Part shown: positions 10,536-22,748 of the stretch, piece after piece
Layout: the number at the start of each line of letters is the position of its first letter
Numbering within the stretch: the stretch's first letter is position 1
Source: Pseudomonadota bacterium
GTDB taxonomy: Bacteria > Desulfobacterota > QYQD01
NCBI GenBank assembly: GCA_011046395.1
Contig: DSAQ01000053.1
Coordinates: 1-45,916 of the forward strand
DNA: 45,916 nucleotides
Direction of reading: 5' to 3'
Made by a program: the position numbers and the translations under genes
The notes under the pieces: generated by a model
Database searches by the model: none
What the model was told of the DNA's origin: nothing
Seen by the model: the letters and a program-made list of their open reading frames with translations, nothing else

Positions 10536-12203
10536 TTAAAGCCGGGCAGGGTTAACCGGCAGGTAGATATAACATATTGTCCCCTGATCCTCTTCCGGCG
10601 GACTTTTGAAATAAATCTTACCCCCGTAATACTCAACCAGGCGACAGATCACGGCCAAACCAAGCTCATCCGCACCACCTTCTATCATAGGAAACGGACT
10701 GAACGCACTATCTGTATGATCAGGAAACACTCCTGCACCGCCATATTTCACTAAAAGGCAAAGGAATTTCCCGTCTCCAACTGCAACGTTCCCATCTGCC
10801 TGCTTAACCAATCGTCCGTCTATCCTGATCTCTCCGCCTTCCGGTCCGGTCTCCAGTATTTTAATAAGCAGGTTTTCTATAATCCTGGAAAGGTGCTCAG
10901 GGGCTATCTTTATATAGACAGGCGATTTTAAATCAATCACTACCTGCATACCAATCCGGCCGGTCCGTTCACGAAGATCAGCGACTACCTCCCCCACTAC
11001 TTGTCCGACCTCAATCTCCCTGGCCTCGCTGTCTTCAGGTCTGGCATAGAGCAAAAAATCGGATAATAATCTGTCCAGTCTTTCTGCATCCCGTAATATA
11101 ATATTTATGAATTTTCCCGGGGTTCCGGATCCATCCCGGCCCAGCATCTGGGCACAGCCGCTTAGGGAGGCCAGGGGATTTCTTATCTCATGGGCCATAG
11201 CCGCGGTCAGTTTCCCGATGGAAGCCAAGACCTGCTGACGCTGAATCTCTGCCTCCATGGCCTTAATTTCTGTCATGTCCTGAAACAAGATGAGCTGGCC
11301 TATATTTTCGTGCTCCGCATTCTTCAGGGACGATATTAAAAAGGAAAGCCACAGCTCTCTGCCCTCTCTATTTTTATACTGAAAACTGGAAAGGTTATTG
11401 TTTTCAGAGATATTATCCCCTTCGGAAGGCAGGTTAAGATGTGGAAAAACCGTGGCTAAGGGTTGACCTGTAACCTCATTGTGGGAAAAAGCGGTAATGT
11501 CCTCCGCTGTGCGGTTAAACGAAGTTATCCGGCCATGCGTATCTAAAGTAAAAAGGCCGGTATTTATCGATTGTACGATGTTCCGGTTGAATGCCTCTAA
11601 TTCCCATATATTCCTCTGTCTTCTGTCCAGTTCAATAGCATCTTTCCTGGCCTGTTCAGACCAATAGCTGCTTAAAAAAGCCATAAAATAAAAGGCTGTT
11701 ATGTGAATACTAGCCTGGTAAATTACGTGGCCGACTGAAATACCGGCCAGGTCTATGGGGTCAAAGTTGAGGGGCGCTATGTAACCAAGATATTGAAAAT
11801 CGAGAAGGGCCGCGTAGAGTATGCCGCTCAACGAGGCTGCTATTACCCCCCCCCGCCTGTAAAGCAACCGGCTGGCCACCATGATTACCAGCAGGTACAG
11901 AAAGGTGAAAGGACTGCTTATCCCGCCGGTCACATAAATTAAGGCCGTAACCAGGAGGGGATCCAGGATCATCTGCACAAAAATGACCCGGCCGGGATCT
12001 CTGATCACCCTGAGCAGAATACTATAGACAACGGTCAGAAGATATACAGAGGATATAAATACGTATAAAGGAAACAGGGTGCCCAATACACCGGCCGGGC
12101 GTGACTGATACTGGATGAGGACAGTAATGACCAGAAGGAGAGTGGCCACCACCACCCTCAAAGACATTAACCATAGCGCCCTGCTGAGATGTGAGTCACT
12201 CAA
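10536..12203 (-). CDS. PilS-like sensor histidine kinase with degenerate ATP-binding domain
   Basis: 555 residues. Six membrane helices lie in residues 10-180, a PAS domain at about 205-310, and a HisKA domain with the H box MAHEIRNPLASLSG (His338). The C-terminal ATPase domain is damaged. The N box has N444 but Lys at 448 where a second Asn is expected. The G1 box reads VKYGGAG (485-491), with Tyr in place of the adenine-contacting Asp. G2 (ELGLAVICRLVEYYGG) is fairly intact. The start is a TTG placed directly after the pilC stop, so translation is coupled. No PilR response regulator is encoded beside it. It may be a weak kinase, a phosphatase or a pseudokinase controlling pilus genes. Confidence 0.85.
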   Translation of the reverse strand: MSDSHLSRALWLMSLRVVVATLLLVITVLIQYQSRPAGVLGTLFPLYVFISSVYLLTVVYSILLRVIRDPGRVIFVQMILDPLLVTALIYVTGGISSPFTFLYLLVIMVASRLLYRRGGVIAASLSGILYAALLDFQYLGYIAPLNFDPIDLAGISVGHVIYQASIHITAFYFMAFLSSYWSEQARKDAIELDRRQRNIWELEAFNRNIVQSINTGLFTLDTHGRITSFNRTAEDITAFSHNEVTGQPLATVFPHLNLPSEGDNISENNNLSSFQYKNREGRELWLSFLISSLKNAEHENIGQLILFQDMTEIKAMEAEIQRQQVLASIGKLTAAMAHEIRNPLASLSGCAQMLGRDGSGTPGKFINIILRDAERLDRLLSDFLLYARPEDSEAREIEVGQVVGEVVADLRERTGRIGMQVVIDLKSPVYIKIAPEHLSRIIENLLIKILETGPEGGEIRIDGRLVKQADGNVAVGDGKFLCLLVKYGGAGVFPDHTDSAFSPFPMIEGGADELGLAVICRLVEYYGGKIYFKSPPEEDQGTICYIYLPVNPARL

Positions 12204-13415
12204 TTAATTACCTACCGCCGCCGCCATCTTAAAGATAGGCAAATACATGGCAATGACTAAGCCGCCAATAGTCCCCCCGAGAAAGACCATCATAAAGGGT
12301 TCGATCATAGACGTTAAGGCATCTACGGCCGCATCTACCTCGTCATCATAAAAATCGGCAATCTTTCCCAGCATGGCATCCAGGGCGCCTGTCGTTTCAC
12401 CCACGGTGATCATTTGAACCACCATGTTAGGGAACACCCCGGTCTCCATGAGCGGTTCGGCTATCGGGCGGCCCTCGCTTATGTTTACCCTGACCTTTAA
12501 GATAGCCTCTTCAATGATCTTATTTCCAGCCGTGCCGGCTACTATGTTTAAGGAATCCAGTATCGGGACACCGCTGCTTATCAGGGTTCCCAGGGTCCGG
12601 GTAAATTTAGCTACGGCTACCTTGCGGACCAGCGGTCCGAACACCGGGAGCCTGAGAACAAGGCTGTCCACCCATTTCCTGCCCTTAGCCGTAGAGTAAA
12701 ATCTCCGAAAGGCAAATACAAACGCAATCAGCCCGGCAATCATAAAAATGATATTTTTCTTAAAGAAATCGCTCAGATTAATAACAAGTTGAGTAGGAGC
12801 CGGTAATGCCTGGCCGAAATCGGCAAACATTTTCTGGAACACCGGGATAACAAAGATGAGGATTACGGCCACGACTAAAACAGCAATGCAAAGGACTACT
12901 AAGGGATAAGTCAGTGCACCTTTGACTTTTTTCTTCAATTTCATAACCTTTTCCATGTACATAGCCAGACGATTGAGGATAACATCCAGTATGCCGCCCA
13001 ACTCCCCCGCGGCTACCATCTTGGAAAAGAGGCTGTCAAAAATCTTATCATGCTTTGCCAGAGAATCGGCAAATGTTGAGCCGGTCTCTACGTTCGTCTT
13101 TATATCCGTAAGCACATCCCTGAAAGTCTTATTGATCTGCTGCTTGGCCAGGATATCCAGGCCCTGAATAAGAGGCAGGCCCGCATCTATCATGGTAGAA
13201 AGTTGTCGTGTAAAAATGACTATATCTTTCTGTGTCACCTTGGGCTTTAAAAATTTGATATTCCCCAGGAGATCCTTTGGTTTTTTCTTTATCTTCGTAG
13301 GTGTTAGCTGCAACCTCCTCAACTGAACCCGCACCGTGGTCTCATCCGGCGCTTCTAACTCACCGCTCCTCTTTTCCCCTTTGCCTGTCTTTGCTTCCCA
13401 GATATAAACAGCCAT
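12204..13415 (-). CDS. pilC: Type IV pilus inner-membrane platform protein PilC
   Basis: 403 residues, the normal length for PilC/GspF. Two T2SSF domains (about 70-195 and 275-395) are each followed by membrane helices; VVLCIAVLVVAVILIFVIPVF is cited here only by its ends at about 170-190. The motif FTRQLSTMIDAGLPL is typical of the first domain. It couples the PilB ATPase to pilin assembly. AGGAGGG lies 6 nt before the ATG. It sits 38 bp after pilB and directly before pilS. The major pilin and pilT are not in the window. Confidence 0.94.
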   Translation of the reverse strand: MAVYIWEAKTGKGEKRSGELEAPDETTVRVQLRRLQLTPTKIKKKPKDLLGNIKFLKPKVTQKDIVIFTRQLSTMIDAGLPLIQGLDILAKQQINKTFRDVLTDIKTNVETGSTFADSLAKHDKIFDSLFSKMVAAGELGGILDVILNRLAMYMEKVMKLKKKVKGALTYPLVVLCIAVLVVAVILIFVIPVFQKMFADFGQALPAPTQLVINLSDFFKKNIIFMIAGLIAFVFAFRRFYSTAKGRKWVDSLVLRLPVFGPLVRKVAVAKFTRTLGTLISSGVPILDSLNIVAGTAGNKIIEEAILKVRVNISEGRPIAEPLMETGVFPNMVVQMITVGETTGALDAMLGKIADFYDDEVDAAVDALTSMIEPFMMVFLGGTIGGLVIAMYLPIFKMAAAVGN

Positions 13416-13453
13416 CTTTATCCCTCCTTAAGTCCTCTAAAACCCCGTAACTA

Positions 13454-15145
13454 TCAATCTGCTACCGTTGTTCGGGCCACTTCTTCTATTGTGGTAACTC
13501 CTTCGAGTATCTTGGTTAACCCGCTCTGACGGAGCGTTTTCGTGCCCAAACGTATAGTCTCTTTCTTAATCTCCATGGCCGAGGCCCCCACCAGAACCAT
13601 TTCTTTCAATTCTTCATACATAGGCATAACCTCATAGAGGGCAATCCGTCCCCGATAACCACTCTGATTGCAATTAAGGCAGCCCTTGCCCTTGTAGCAG
13701 ATAATCTCTCCGTCAGACTCCTGTTGTAACCCCATATTTCGTAAGACCTCGCTAGGAATAGAGACTTCCTCCTTACAATCCGGACAAATCTTTCGTACTA
13801 AACGCTGAGCCAGGATAAGATTGACAGAAGATGACACCAAAAATGGCTCTACGCCCATATTGAGCAGACGGTTAATCGTAGAAGGAGCATCATTGGTATG
13901 AAGCGTAGAAAGGACCAGATGCCCGGTCAGGGCAGCCTTGACTCCAATCTCTGCCGTCTCAAAATCTCTAATCTCACCAACCATAATTATGTCTGGATCC
14001 TGCCTCAAGAATGACCGTAAGGCAGCCGCAAAGGTCAAACCTATATCATCATGGATTTGTACCTGGTTTATGCCCATTAGGTTGAATTCCACAGGGTCTT
14101 CCGCAGTCGAAATATTCTCGGTCACCTTATTTAACTCGGCCAGTGCCGAATAAAGGGTGGTGGTCTTCCCGCTCCCGGTCGGTCCGGTAACCAGGACCAT
14201 ACCATAGGGCTTGTGGATAGCCTCCATAAAATCATCCAGGGCCTTTTCCTCAAAACCCAGCCTGGTCATATCCAGTTGGAGATTAGACTTGTCGAGGAGC
14301 CGTAAGACTACTTTTTCACCGAATAGGGTGGGCAGCACCGATACCCGGAAATCCATCTCCTTACCCTTCCCTACGATTAGCTTTATACGCCCGTCCTGAG
14401 GCAGCCTCCTCTCCGCAATATCCAGTTTGGACATAATCTTAATTCGCGAGATTATCGCGTTCTTCAGTCGCAAAGGTGGGTTCATTATCTCATATAAGAC
14501 GCCATCGATTCTGAACCTGACCCGAAAGACCTTTTCATACGGTTCTACATGGATATCGCTGGCCTGCTTTTTAATAGCGTCAGCCAGAATAAAGTTAACC
14601 AGCTTAACAACCGGCGCCTCCGTGGCTGCTGTAGCCAGGACTGAGGCATCGAGCTCTTCCTCATCACCGGCATAGTCCATCCCTTCGTCTTTAAATCCCT
14701 CCATCACATCGCTCAGGGAAGCAGACATATCATAAAAACGATCAATGGCCTTTTTGATCGCCAGGTCAGTGGCTAACTGAACTACCACGTTTGTACCGGT
14801 AAAAAACTTTATGTCATCTATGGCCGAAATGTTGGAGGGATCAGCTATGGCCACGGTCAAAACCGAGCCGACTTTCTTTAGCGGGATAACATATTTCTGG
14901 ACAATACGGGGGGGGATAAGCCTGATAACCTCCTCGGGGATATCTATAGCGGAAGGATCCACCACGGAAACCCCAAATTGTCTGCTCAAAAAACTGAGCA
15001 GGGCATTTTCAGCAAGAATGCCCATTTTAACAAGATGATAACCAAGAGTCCCCCCGTGGAGCCTTTGTTCGTTCAAGACCCTTTTCAGTTGTTCCACGGT
15101 TATCAACTTTTCTCTAACTAATAATTCGCCGAGACGGGTTGACAT
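13454..15145 (-). CDS. pilB: Type IV pilus assembly ATPase PilB
   Basis: 563 residues, full length. The N-terminal T2SSE_N domain lies at about 1-150. The hexameric secretion ATPase has Walker A GPTGSGKT (321-328), the Asp box, Walker B IIMVGEIRD, a His box (LVLSTLHTNDA) and the zinc tetra-Cys site C454-C457 and C489-C492. It powers pilus extension from the cytoplasmic face. AGGTGG lies 6 nt before the ATG. It is the first gene of pilB-pilC-pilS. GspE of type II secretion is the alternative, but the company of a PilS-like kinase favours PilB. Confidence 0.93.
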   Translation of the reverse strand: MSTRLGELLVREKLITVEQLKRVLNEQRLHGGTLGYHLVKMGILAENALLSFLSRQFGVSVVDPSAIDIPEEVIRLIPPRIVQKYVIPLKKVGSVLTVAIADPSNISAIDDIKFFTGTNVVVQLATDLAIKKAIDRFYDMSASLSDVMEGFKDEGMDYAGDEEELDASVLATAATEAPVVKLVNFILADAIKKQASDIHVEPYEKVFRVRFRIDGVLYEIMNPPLRLKNAIISRIKIMSKLDIAERRLPQDGRIKLIVGKGKEMDFRVSVLPTLFGEKVVLRLLDKSNLQLDMTRLGFEEKALDDFMEAIHKPYGMVLVTGPTGSGKTTTLYSALAELNKVTENISTAEDPVEFNLMGINQVQIHDDIGLTFAAALRSFLRQDPDIIMVGEIRDFETAEIGVKAALTGHLVLSTLHTNDAPSTINRLLNMGVEPFLVSSSVNLILAQRLVRKICPDCKEEVSIPSEVLRNMGLQQESDGEIICYKGKGCLNCNQSGYRGRIALYEVMPMYEELKEMVLVGASAMEIKKETIRLGTKTLRQSGLTKILEGVTTIEEVARTTVAD

Positions 15146-15646: not shown

Positions 15647-17596
15647 ATGGAAGAACTGGCCCCTAATAACATAGAAGTCTTTTATGCACTTCCCGGAGTG
15701 GATTTCCTGGCATTTCTCCCGGAAGAGGAACTCTTCCATTTAGCAAAACGGTTCAAAAGGCTCCAGGCCAGAAAAGGTGAGACAATCTGCCGGGAAGGAG
15801 ATCCGGGAGATTCACTTTTCATAATCAAGTCCGGCATGGTTGGCGTTTACGTAAGGAAGGACGAGCAGGATAACCTTATTGCCCAATTACACCGGGGAGA
15901 TTTCTTCGGTGAACGGGCCATTCTCACCGGGGAACCAAGGATGGCTACAGTCAAAGCAGCCCTTGACGTCGAACTTTTTGAACTTAAGAAAGCAGATTTT
16001 GAGGAACTACTGTACAAACATCCATCGGTTGCTCTGCACATCAGCCGCGTTATATCTTCCAGGTTCAGTAAGGTTGGAGGGCTTATTACTCCGCTGCTCA
16101 CCCCTTGTTTTTATAGTGTCATCGGTTCTCATGCCGGCCTTGGTTGCTCCACTTTCACTGCTATGCTGGCGGTATCCGTCACCCGTGAAACAGGGGGAAA
16201 AGTCCTGGTTATAGACTTGGAAGCCTCCTGTGGACAGGTCTTACATATCTTGGGCGGGGAACAGATAGACTGCCCGGACAAACGATTAATTGAAGACTTT
16301 TCTCCGGAAACCAGGGCTAAGCTAAGGCAATCCTGGTACAAAAGTCCCAACGGTGTCACTATCTTCCAGTTGCCGCAAACGAGTGATCGACAATTTGTTG
16401 CGGAAATCAGGTCGCATCTATCCTCTATCATGGAAGTATTGAAAAATAATTTTGCATTTGTCTTTTTCGATCTCCACCCTGTGATCAATACGGTGAGTAA
16501 AAGGGTCTTGAGGCTCTCTGACTGCATTCTCTTTCTTAGCCCGACCCTTGCGGAAGATATGGCCGATGTCCGGAAAAAGCTCCGTCAGATTCAGAATATC
16601 ACCGATTCTACGTCAGCGCGGGTCAAGATCGGCACAAGCCATACAAGAGGAGACACAGGTCTTCACCGCGCTGAAATAAAGGCCCGTCTGAACCTGGCCG
16701 AGGTTCCGGAGATATGGCAATATAAGGAGGAAGAAAAAAATAGAACTGCGCTGAGAAGACTGGCGCGCGAAATTTGCAAAAGACGAGTCGGGGTAGCGCT
16801 CGGGGCCGGAGGCGCACGGGGATGGACACATCTGGGCGTTCTGAAAGCGCTGGAAGAAAGGGGCATCCCCATAGATATGATGGCCGGATGCAGCATCGGG
16901 GCATTTGTAGCCGCATTATACGGGAAGACCGGTTCGGCAAAAGAGGCTATAAAACTGGCCTTGTCCTATTTCTCCACCACTCGCCAGGTAAGAAAAAATA
17001 TATACGACTACACACTGCTGGGCGGTGGAGTTTTAAAGGGAAATCGCATCCTCTCCGTACTCGAAGAGATGTTAGAGGGTGCAGATTTTCTTGACCTATC
17101 GATCCCGGTGAGTATTATTGCCGTTGACATGGCCACCGGTCAGGAGGTTATTATGGAGCGGGGGTCGGTGAGCAAGGCCGTGAGGGCCAGTATATCCAGC
17201 CCGGGCATGTTCAATCCATTTAATATGAATGGACAGTGGCTTAGCGATGGGGCGCTTCTCAATCCGTTGCCCGTGGATGTACTTGTCAATAAAGGCGCCG
17301 ACTTTGTATTAGCTTCGGTAGTAGAAAGGCGTACCCGCGAGCACTGGCCTGAAAATAGCGGGCCTTCTATCTTAGGCGTACTCGCCCGTTCCTTCTCCAT
17401 AATGTTTTCCCATGCGGCACGGGAAAGCATTAATAAATCTGACATCGTTATTTATCCTGATGTCGAAGGCTACCGGTGGGGAGATTTCCATATGGGAAAG
17501 GAATTAATACGCAGGGGAGAAGAGGCCTGCCTTAAAAAGATCGAAGAGATTGAGAAATTAATAAGCGGAGAACTACCAGCAGTCGGCAGTCGATAG
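15647..17596 (+). CDS. NTE-like phospholipase: cyclic-nucleotide-binding, degenerate ParA-like and patatin domains
   Basis: 649 residues in three parts. (1) A CNB domain (about 17-140) has a phosphate cassette FGERAIL...EPRMATV with E90 and R98 kept, so cAMP or cGMP binding is plausible. (2) A MinD/ParA-like domain (about 155-330) has the P-loop read as GSHAGLGCST, with Cys where the catalytic Lys belongs, so ATPase activity is unlikely. (3) A patatin domain (about 378-640) has the oxyanion loop GAGGARG, nucleophile Ser416 in GCSIG and Asp534 in DGA, all intact. This order, and segments such as RLSDCILFL, parallel eukaryotic neuropathy target esterase. It should hydrolyse (lyso)phospholipids. 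No signal peptide. An acyl-CoA synthetase gene follows. Confidence 0.9.
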   Translation: MEELAPNNIEVFYALPGVDFLAFLPEEELFHLAKRFKRLQARKGETICREGDPGDSLFIIKSGMVGVYVRKDEQDNLIAQLHRGDFFGERAILTGEPRMATVKAALDVELFELKKADFEELLYKHPSVALHISRVISSRFSKVGGLITPLLTPCFYSVIGSHAGLGCSTFTAMLAVSVTRETGGKVLVIDLEASCGQVLHILGGEQIDCPDKRLIEDFSPETRAKLRQSWYKSPNGVTIFQLPQTSDRQFVAEIRSHLSSIMEVLKNNFAFVFFDLHPVINTVSKRVLRLSDCILFLSPTLAEDMADVRKKLRQIQNITDSTSARVKIGTSHTRGDTGLHRAEIKARLNLAEVPEIWQYKEEEKNRTALRRLAREICKRRVGVALGAGGARGWTHLGVLKALEERGIPIDMMAGCSIGAFVAALYGKTGSAKEAIKLALSYFSTTRQVRKNIYDYTLLGGGVLKGNRILSVLEEMLEGADFLDLSIPVSIIAVDMATGQEVIMERGSVSKAVRASISSPGMFNPFNMNGQWLSDGALLNPLPVDVLVNKGADFVLASVVERRTREHWPENSGPSILGVLARSFSIMFSHAARESINKSDIVIYPDVEGYRWGDFHMGKELIRRGEEACLKKIEEIEKLISGELPAVGSR

Positions 17597-17705: not shown

Positions 17706-19496
17706 ATGCAAGACACAATTAACCATTTACTTGAGCAGGCCATATCCAAATTCCCGGAAAGTGTTGCGCTGCAGGAAAGGCATCATACCGGGTGGACAAC
17801 CCTGTCCTACAGCGCACTGGGAAAAACTATTGCCGAGTTAGGAACTGGCCTTATCTCCCTGGGTGTAAGACCGGGGGAAAACATAGGCCTTTTCATAAAT
17901 AAAGGCTGCAACTGGCTCATCAGCGACTTTGCTATCCTGGGCAGCGGCGGGGTAGATGTCCCGCGCGGTAATGACCTGGCCCTGGACGAGCTCACCTATA
18001 TAGCCAACCACGCAGAGGTCAAGATCGCTATCACGGATATGTCCCCGGACACAATCCCAATCCTGAAAAAGGAAGCCCCAACCATTGGATACATCATCTA
18101 CTCAGGAGATAAAACGCCCCCCGAAGTAAAAGGTCTCATCACCTGGGAAGAGGTAAGGCTTAAGGGAAAAGAACTGTTATCCAACGGCGATAAGACATTT
18201 TTTGAGCGGGCTAACACGGCCAGAGAAAACGATCTGGCCACTATTGTCTATACCTCAGGCACGACCGGGCGGCCTAAAGGGGTTATGCTCACACATGGGA
18301 ACATAGCTAAAAACGTTGGTTCCGTCCTCAAGTGCATACCGGTATATCCAGGCGAGCGCTTTTTGTCCCTCCTCCCGCCTTACCACATGTTTGAAAGGAT
18401 AATCGAATATGTCGCCCTTTCAAACGGGGCCACGCTTATTTTCAGTGACCCCCACCACTTTCGTAAGGATCTGTCTGCGCAACAGCCAAATTTCATAGCC
18501 GGTGTGCCCAGGCTGTGGGAGATATTTTATCAGGGGGTAATGGACAGATTAAAAAAGGAAAAATATTATAAGCTGATCAGCTTATTACTTACGGCCAGCA
18601 AAAACTTCATAAAATCCAGGCGGTTCATGTACCTTCCACTCCACCTTCTGGCTGACCGGCTGATATATAAAACCGTGCGAAACAACCTGGGCGGCGAGTT
18701 AAGGATAGCGGTGAGCGGAGGAGGAAGCCTGCCGATCCATCTCGATGATTTTTTCGAAATGATAGGAGTAACCCTTCTCAATGGCTACGGGCTGACGGAA
18801 ACCTCACCAGTCCTCACCATAAGACGGCCGGAAGCCAACATTAAGGGCAGCGCGGGAAGACCGATACCCGAAACAGAGATAAAAATACTGACCGAAACTG
18901 AGGAACCCGTCCCGCCCGGCAAGGCCGGGATTATCTGGGTAAAGGGGCCTCAGGTTATGCAGGGATACTTTAAGGACAAGGAGGCCACGGATAAGGTACT
19001 CAAAAATGGCTGGCTGAACACCGGCGATCTCGGCATGCTAACCCCGCAAGGGGATCTCATCATCACCGGCCGGGCCAAGGATACTATCGTCCTTTTGAGC
19101 GGTGAAAACGTGGAACCGGAACCCATAGAAACAAGCCTGGCCTTAAGCCCGTTCATATCCCAGGCCATGCTCGTCGGACAGGACCGAAAATACCCTGGAG
19201 CACTTATAGTGCCACATATACAAGTTATCAAGGATTATGCCCATGAACATAATATACCCTATAGTGATTCTAACCAATTGGTCCAGCATCCTGAAATTAT
19301 CCAGCTTATCAAAAATGAGATGGATCGACTCCACAATAAAAAAGAAAGCGCCAAGCCATGGGCAAAGATTATCAGGTTTAGGCTAATCCCTGAAGAATGG
19401 ACTACACAAAGCGGCCTTTTGACCTTTACCTTAAAAAAGAAAAGGACGGCCATCGCCGCAAATTTTCAAGAAGAGATAGAAGACCTCTACCGGTAA
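17706..19496 (+). CDS. Long-chain acyl-CoA synthetase (AMP-forming)
   Basis: 596 residues of the ANL superfamily, matching the long-chain (FACL) group in length. The P-loop is IVYTSGTTGRPKGVMLTHGN (about 177-196), A5 is GYGLTETSP (about 359), A7 is NTGDLG and A8 is the GRAKDTIVLLSGENVEPEPIE region (shown as ends only). It activates fatty acids to acyl-CoA through acyl-AMP. No membrane helix is evident. Placed after a patatin phospholipase, it could re-activate the fatty acids that enzyme releases. Substrate chain length is not readable. A small conserved protein follows within 40 bp. Confidence 0.92.
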   Translation: MQDTINHLLEQAISKFPESVALQERHHTGWTTLSYSALGKTIAELGTGLISLGVRPGENIGLFINKGCNWLISDFAILGSGGVDVPRGNDLALDELTYIANHAEVKIAITDMSPDTIPILKKEAPTIGYIIYSGDKTPPEVKGLITWEEVRLKGKELLSNGDKTFFERANTARENDLATIVYTSGTTGRPKGVMLTHGNIAKNVGSVLKCIPVYPGERFLSLLPPYHMFERIIEYVALSNGATLIFSDPHHFRKDLSAQQPNFIAGVPRLWEIFYQGVMDRLKKEKYYKLISLLLTASKNFIKSRRFMYLPLHLLADRLIYKTVRNNLGGELRIAVSGGGSLPIHLDDFFEMIGVTLLNGYGLTETSPVLTIRRPEANIKGSAGRPIPETEIKILTETEEPVPPGKAGIIWVKGPQVMQGYFKDKEATDKVLKNGWLNTGDLGMLTPQGDLIITGRAKDTIVLLSGENVEPEPIETSLALSPFISQAMLVGQDRKYPGALIVPHIQVIKDYAHEHNIPYSDSNQLVQHPEIIQLIKNEMDRLHNKKESAKPWAKIIRFRLIPEEWTTQSGLLTFTLKKKRTAIAANFQEEIEDLYR

Positions 19497-22139: not shown

Positions 22140-22748
22140 GTGCATACAGCAGCTGAAAGATACAGACTTGGATTTAGTTGGTTAATTGGATTAATTTTCA
22201 TCTCAATAATTCTATTTTCAAAATCAGGTCACGAAGGGTCACTTTCATATGAAATTCTAGAATTATCCGGATGTGCATTGATAGTTATTGCAACCCTTGG
22301 ACGAATCTGGGCTACCGTTTACATCGGAGGAAGAAAAGATGAAGAATTATGCCAGGATGGGCCATATTCTATATGGCGAAATCCTCTGTATGTGTTCTCT
22401 TTTCTCGGTGCAGTTGGGATCATTCTTAGCTCGGGGAAATTAATACTTCTTTTTATAATCATGCCTTTTTTTATTTATAACTACTACTTTGTTATCAAAG
22501 GAGAAGAAGCAAGACTCTTTGAATTATTTGGGAATGAATACGCTGAATACTGCAAAAAAGTTAAACGAATTATCCCAAACTTCAATAACTATTGGTCAAA
22601 AAACAGTTTCGAAGTTTACCCGAAGGTTTTTTTCCGCTCAATGGTCCATGCCAGTCTTTTTATGTGGTTATTCATTTTATTAGAATTTCTTGAATATTTT
22701 AAAGAAAATACAAAATTGATACCGACCTTATTTTATTTACCATTTTAG
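22140..22748 (+). CDS. ICMT/PEMT-family membrane methyltransferase
   Basis: 202 residues with about five membrane helices. The family signature is YSIWRNPLYVFSFLG (about 82-96), then GEEARLFELFGNEYAEYCKKV (ends shown), the SAM-binding Glu-Tyr part of isoprenylcysteine carboxyl methyltransferase and phospholipid methyltransferases. The start is a GTG with AGGAG 4 nt upstream, only 9 bp after the HNH gene. The extra C-terminal helix (165-195) is unusual for the family. The sequence is AT-rich compared with the window as a whole. The substrate is unknown; in bacteria it need not be a prenyl-cysteine. Confidence 0.8.
   Translation: MHTAAERYRLGFSWLIGLIFISIILFSKSGHEGSLSYEILELSGCALIVIATLGRIWATVYIGGRKDEELCQDGPYSIWRNPLYVFSFLGAVGIILSSGKLILLFIIMPFFIYNYYFVIKGEEARLFELFGNEYAEYCKKVKRIIPNFNNYWSKNSFEVYPKVFFRSMVHASLFMWLFILLEFLEYFKENTKLIPTLFYLPF

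Follow-up and report, generated by a model that had tools for sequence, protein, structure and literature searches.

Neuropathy target esterase (NTE) is the product of a human disease gene, and the role of the stretch between its cyclic-nucleotide domains and its lipase domain is poorly known. The window (the whole stretch of DNA analyzed here, 45,916 nucleotides) encodes a protein in which a cyclic nucleotide-binding domain (CNB), a P-loop-like domain and a patatin domain follow one another from N to C terminus (Table 1). The original prediction described this protein as a bacterial analogue of NTE with an inactivated middle domain of the MinD/ParA type. Two questions arise from this locus: is the protein a relative of NTE in the strict sense, and is its middle domain dead?

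Table 1. Position of the lipase gene, its domains and motifs, and neighboring genes in the window
Feature	Position	Strand	Remarks
CNB - CpaE/TadZ-like P-loop - patatin protein	15647..17596	+	649 aa (stop included); ORF real
Cyclic nucleotide-binding domain	15764..16015	+	Residues 40-123; Pfam PF00027, 5.2e-25
Phosphate-binding cassette F87-G-E89-R-A-I-L-T-G-E-P-R98-M-A-T-V102	15905..15952	+	From sequence
CpaE/TadZ-like P-loop domain	16106..16786	+	Residues about 154-380, terminal helix LRRLARE; hhalign to CpaE
Degenerate Walker A G160-S-H162-A-G-L-G-C167-S-T169	16124..16153	+	His162 for signature Lys, Cys167 for P-loop Lys
D190, putative Walker A' aspartate (VLVID190L)	16214..16216	+	Invariant in four-sequence alignment A3
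D275, putative Walker B aspartate (FVFFD275L)	16469..16471	+	Asn in L042
Patatin domain	16796..17284	+	Residues 384-546; Pfam PF01734, 3e-26; PlpD 5fqu, E 6e-33
Oxyanion loop GAGGARG	16802..16822	+	Residues 386-392; invariant in genus
Nucleophile Ser416 (G-C-S416-I-G)	16892..16894	+	Invariant in genus
Catalytic Asp534 (D534-G-A)	17246..17248	+	Invariant in genus
AMP-forming acyl-CoA synthetase	17706..19496	+	Next gene, 109-base gap; Pfam PF00501, 3.5e-84; neighbor kept in genus
pilS-, pilC- and pilB-type genes	10536-15145	-	Divergent from lipase gene; arrangement kept in genus
PEMT/ICMT-family methyltransferase	22140-22748	+	Downstream

Results

The open reading frame is a constrained gene, since orthologues with 90 to 94% identity, all keeping Cys167, are present in three of the four other genomes of the genus and dN/dS values are low (0.10 to 0.23 for the CNB, 0.23 to 0.31 for the P-loop domain and 0.07 to 0.17 for the patatin domain). 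Purifying selection acts on all three domains; the least constrained stretch is the Walker A region, with a dN/dS of 0.33 to 0.49 based on few substitutions. When 395 genomes of the phylum were searched with a profile of the middle domain, two more full-length homologues emerged, L041 (genome G159) and L042 (G386), whose identity to the window protein, across some 645 residues, is 43% and 41%. The tridomain family is thereby known from at least three lineages of the phylum, namely the window genus and those of L041 and L042. Our survey of homologues covered one phylum and plasmids. No full-length relative was found on the plasmids searched and no relative on the viral contigs scanned, while a scan of genome contigs returned a single close homologue, the Deltaproteobacteria MAG PowLak16_MAG11, which is the nearest named record. 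An AlphaFold2 model, for which the input was the protein and one homologue (L036), had a mean pLDDT of 29.9, too low for a usable structure.

The NTE-like domain order that had been proposed holds, in that Pfam recognizes the CNB and the patatin domain and the P-loop-like domain lies between them. As in NTE, a CNB precedes a patatin domain with a Ser/Asp dyad. However, the window protein differs from NTE (PNPLA6/7) in having one CNB only and no N-terminal membrane anchor evident from its sequence.

The motifs of the CNB and of the lipase, including the Ser416/Asp534 dyad, are intact. The original prediction had the phosphate-binding cassette keeping E90 and R98; the arginine is as stated, but the acidic residue is E89. 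These two residues lie nine positions apart, as such a cassette requires, and the Glu and Arg occur at identical spacing in 6 of 6 homologues. From the intact cassette, the domain is predicted to bind a cyclic nucleotide. For human NTE, direct binding of cAMP was, as of 2019, without supporting evidence (PMC6995513). A source of cyclic nucleotide in the window genome is likely, as judged from one class III cyclase domain at the N terminus of an 883-aa frame (L092, G000:C92, minus strand). This domain reads VNVAAKI, placing Lys at the position expected of the transition-state Arg, and, as it is the only class III cyclase found in the genome, the source of the ligand is unsure.

Cys167 does occupy the position of the catalytic P-loop Lys (GSHAGLGCST), as originally noted. 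The deviant Walker A motif has likewise lost its signature Lys, which is replaced by His162, a change absent from that prediction. Neither lysine is found in L041 (GSEKGVGTST) or L042 (TSTHEGLGRSH); across the three lineages, C, T or R stands at the P-loop position and H, E or H at the signature position. The loss thus extends to all homologues found, which represent only three lineages, and the motif KGGxxGK[TS] of active ParA/MinD ATPases is absent from the family. D190 and D275 are assigned their putative roles by analogy, in the case of D190 with ParA/MinD.

The fold had been called clearly that of MinD/ParA. The window protein's own match to AAA_31 (23.3 bits, 7e-5) lies below the Pfam cut-off of 27; the assignment stands through L041, which matches AAA_31 at 1.4e-7, and through profile comparison. 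The middle domain aligned by hhalign to 19 CpaE-like sequences with a probability of 99.6% (E 2e-24), versus 97.9% to canonical ParA/MinD, and is a ParA/MinD-superfamily domain of the CpaE type. CpaE/TadZ-type proteins are also the best matches to its profile outside the family, and among solved structures it matches 3ea0, a ParA-family ATPase, best (E 0.001). Likeness to CpaE/TadZ extends to a C-terminal LAxxLxG helix and to the frequent lack of the P-loop Lys. This position is N, T, V, I or A in 18 CpaE-like sequences, a frequency of loss that must be read in light of their having been picked by similarity to the window family; the exception is a fused CpaE-CpaF frame, L054, which has GKS. 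However, the window protein has a CNB where CpaE/TadZ proteins have an N-terminal atypical receiver domain, a patatin domain in place of the membrane-binding tail of CpaE, and a loss of the signature Lys as well. Its gene does not lie in a Tad locus; the neighbors are of the pilB/pilC/pilS type and an acyl-CoA synthetase, and are different again at the distant loci L088 and L089.

Two papers that cite the structure report on TadZ of E. rectale describe this protein as having ATPase activity despite the loss of both lysines, one of which is compensated from a neighboring helix (PMC10482377), and as binding ATP for dimerization (PMC13170226). The C-terminal amphipathic helix of CpaE binds the membrane (PMC13170226). 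The missing lysines thus characterize the lineage and are not in themselves evidence of inactivation; hence, the description of the middle domain as inactivated is not upheld.

Relatedness to NTE was assessed with the patatin domain. With 34 rows in the tree, the bacterial NTEs group in a single clade (100/100), and the window family in a second (96/88), which adjoins L005, a stand-alone patatin of 275 aa (100/99), and several clades of stand-alone patatins fall between the two. Forcing the window family and the bacterial NTEs into one clade was rejected by 31 log units with a p-AU of 0.006, and by a p-AU of 0.0136 in a tree of 28 rows; these trees contain no eukaryotic sequence, and such a test is subject to whatever long-branch attraction affects the model. 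The window patatin is 48% identical to L005 and matches NF007623 at 2.8e-43, which is below the cut-off of that family. These RssA-type stand-alone patatins share the patatin domain with the window protein, but lack both the CNB and the P-loop domain. For the stretch that precedes the patatin domain of NTE, Pfam has an entry of its own, PF24179 ("Neuropathy Target Esterase family P-loop like domain"). Bacterial NTEs do match this entry, whereas the window protein does not at E values up to 1, nor does anything else in its genome. Kinship with NTE in the strict sense is thus not supported, given the lack of PF24179, the grouping with stand-alone patatins and the rejection of a single clade. As far as these sequences go, the window protein is an NTE look-alike in layout that lies outside the NTE clade.

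Of the 395 genomes of the phylum, 6 encode proteins that combine PF24179 with a patatin domain and either one or two CNBs (one match being below the cut-off); such proteins are also found in a Caulobacter control genome and on alphaproteobacterial plasmids. Their P-loop motif is gone altogether (e.g., IPASQGLSLTDF in L031), whereas the Walker A loop of the window middle domain is still recognizable. Some plasmid-borne NTE-type proteins are unusual in other respects. Four from Ensifer and Sinorhizobium plasmids (L061, L062, L097 and L100) have an oxyanion loop AAGGGSLG or EGGGSLG without the usual GGGxRG Arg, and the loops of L095 (GGAACG) and L094 (GGGAKA) deviate as well; from these motifs, catalysis may differ in such proteins. 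The NTE-type gene L099, on a plasmid of Rhizobium sp. RCAM05350, is apparently broken: its match falls into three pieces, and the annotation splits it into distinct CNB and patatin genes.

The proposal that the pre-patatin region of NTE derives from a P-loop ATPase is not new in its general form, since Pfam already holds PF24179; we found no literature on NTE in combination with a P-loop. Profile comparison lends it modest support. A profile built from the P-loop regions of 13 bacterial NTEs scored 32.8 against the window family plus CpaE, compared with a maximum of 20.8 for 200 column shuffles and 17.8 for a reversed copy; against canonical ParA/MinD it scored 22.3, a value reached by 1 of 200 shuffles. 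The signal is carried by the Walker B strand and the one that follows it, and is modest because the hhalign probability is only 44 to 49%. A helix of the type xLARxLxG, which ends the P-loop domain, precedes the oxyanion loop by exactly 14 residues in 6 of 6 members of the window family and in 13 of 13 bacterial NTEs. It is missing from stand-alone patatins, and a similar helix is present at the C terminus of CpaE.

The genes around the lipase gene differ between lineages. A link to pili, which the pilB, pilC and pilS neighbors could suggest, was set aside, as this neighborhood is kept within the genus only and not at L088 or L089. The downstream methyltransferase could be a phospholipid methyltransferase, which is of interest as NTE acts on phosphatidylcholine. 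At the distant homologous loci L088:6374-8149 (plus strand, G159) and L089:1993-3765 (minus strand, G386), a DUF885 gene is found close to the lipase gene and divergently oriented. Its protein products from these two loci share 62% identity, and at E 1e-40 no such protein was found in 118 relatives, with one exception, a match of 27%, in G008, the genome that encodes the nearest stand-alone patatin. This suggests that the DUF885 and lipase genes are a linked pair, either functional or transferred together.

Discussion

Our results make it reasonably probable that the window protein is a soluble, cyclic-nucleotide-responsive, CpaE-scaffolded membrane (lyso)phospholipase, with an NTE-like layout but outside the NTE clade. 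The CNB is predicted to sense a cyclic nucleotide, and the CpaE-type domain would dimerize and position the protein at the membrane. The patatin domain, with Ser416 and Asp534, would then hydrolyze a membrane lipid, presumably a (lyso)phospholipid, at the end where CpaE has its membrane tail. In the window genus, the adjoining acyl-CoA synthetase could activate the freed fatty acid for re-use.

It is also possible that the middle domain is a nucleotide-free spacer that merely joins sensor to lipase, an explanation we take seriously but do not favor. The loss of both lysines in all homologues, the absence of the Walker B Asp from L042 and the faster evolution of the P-loop region than of any other part of the protein would fit a spacer. 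However, lack of the P-loop Lys is the norm in this lineage, where TadZ is reported to keep ATP binding (PMC10482377, PMC13170226), while G-x-G-x-S/T and D190 are kept here and the domain is under purifying selection. Alternatively, the tridomain protein may have arisen once, with the window family, the PF24179 proteins and eukaryotic NTE as its descendants and the nearby stand-alone patatins having lost their N-terminal domains. The shared domain order, the NTE profile score above all shuffles and the junction helix argue for this, as an identical 14-residue spacing is what a single fusion would be expected to leave and counts against assembly that was separate throughout. The helix at the C terminus of CpaE means, however, that comparable spacing could also result if fusion happened twice at this same end of the domain; the junction fits either a single ancient fusion followed by loss or two such fusions. 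As stand-alone clades lie in between, a single clade is rejected in both trees and the window protein lacks PF24179, we regard a single origin as rather unlikely. A role as a phage-defense effector, that is, a phospholipase activated by a cyclic nucleotide in the manner of CBASS or of Pycsar-type CNB effectors, is very improbable. There are weak PADLOC matches, with the CNB resembling Pycsar TIR effectors and the patatin domain CBASS phospholipases, but these are at the level of domains only. No CBASS or Pycsar cyclase is present among the neighbors examined (pilB, pilC, pilS and the acyl-CoA synthetase), and the gene context is conserved across the genus rather than island-like.

Beyond the CpaE-scaffolded lipase itself, a wider and unlikely proposal is that the P-loop-like domain of NTE comes from the CpaE/TadZ branch. 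The window family would then be a less degraded fusion of the same kind, in which Lys-free binding of ATP would control dimerization of a lipase gated by cyclic nucleotides.

In summary, the window family carries a warning that absent lysines do not prove a domain dead. Kinship with CpaE/TadZ predicts that the P-loop domain would dimerize and position its protein at the membrane. As a small, soluble protein with the layout of NTE and a recognizable P-loop domain that has a named relative in CpaE/TadZ, the window protein would be a tractable model for the poorly known stretch of the human enzyme.
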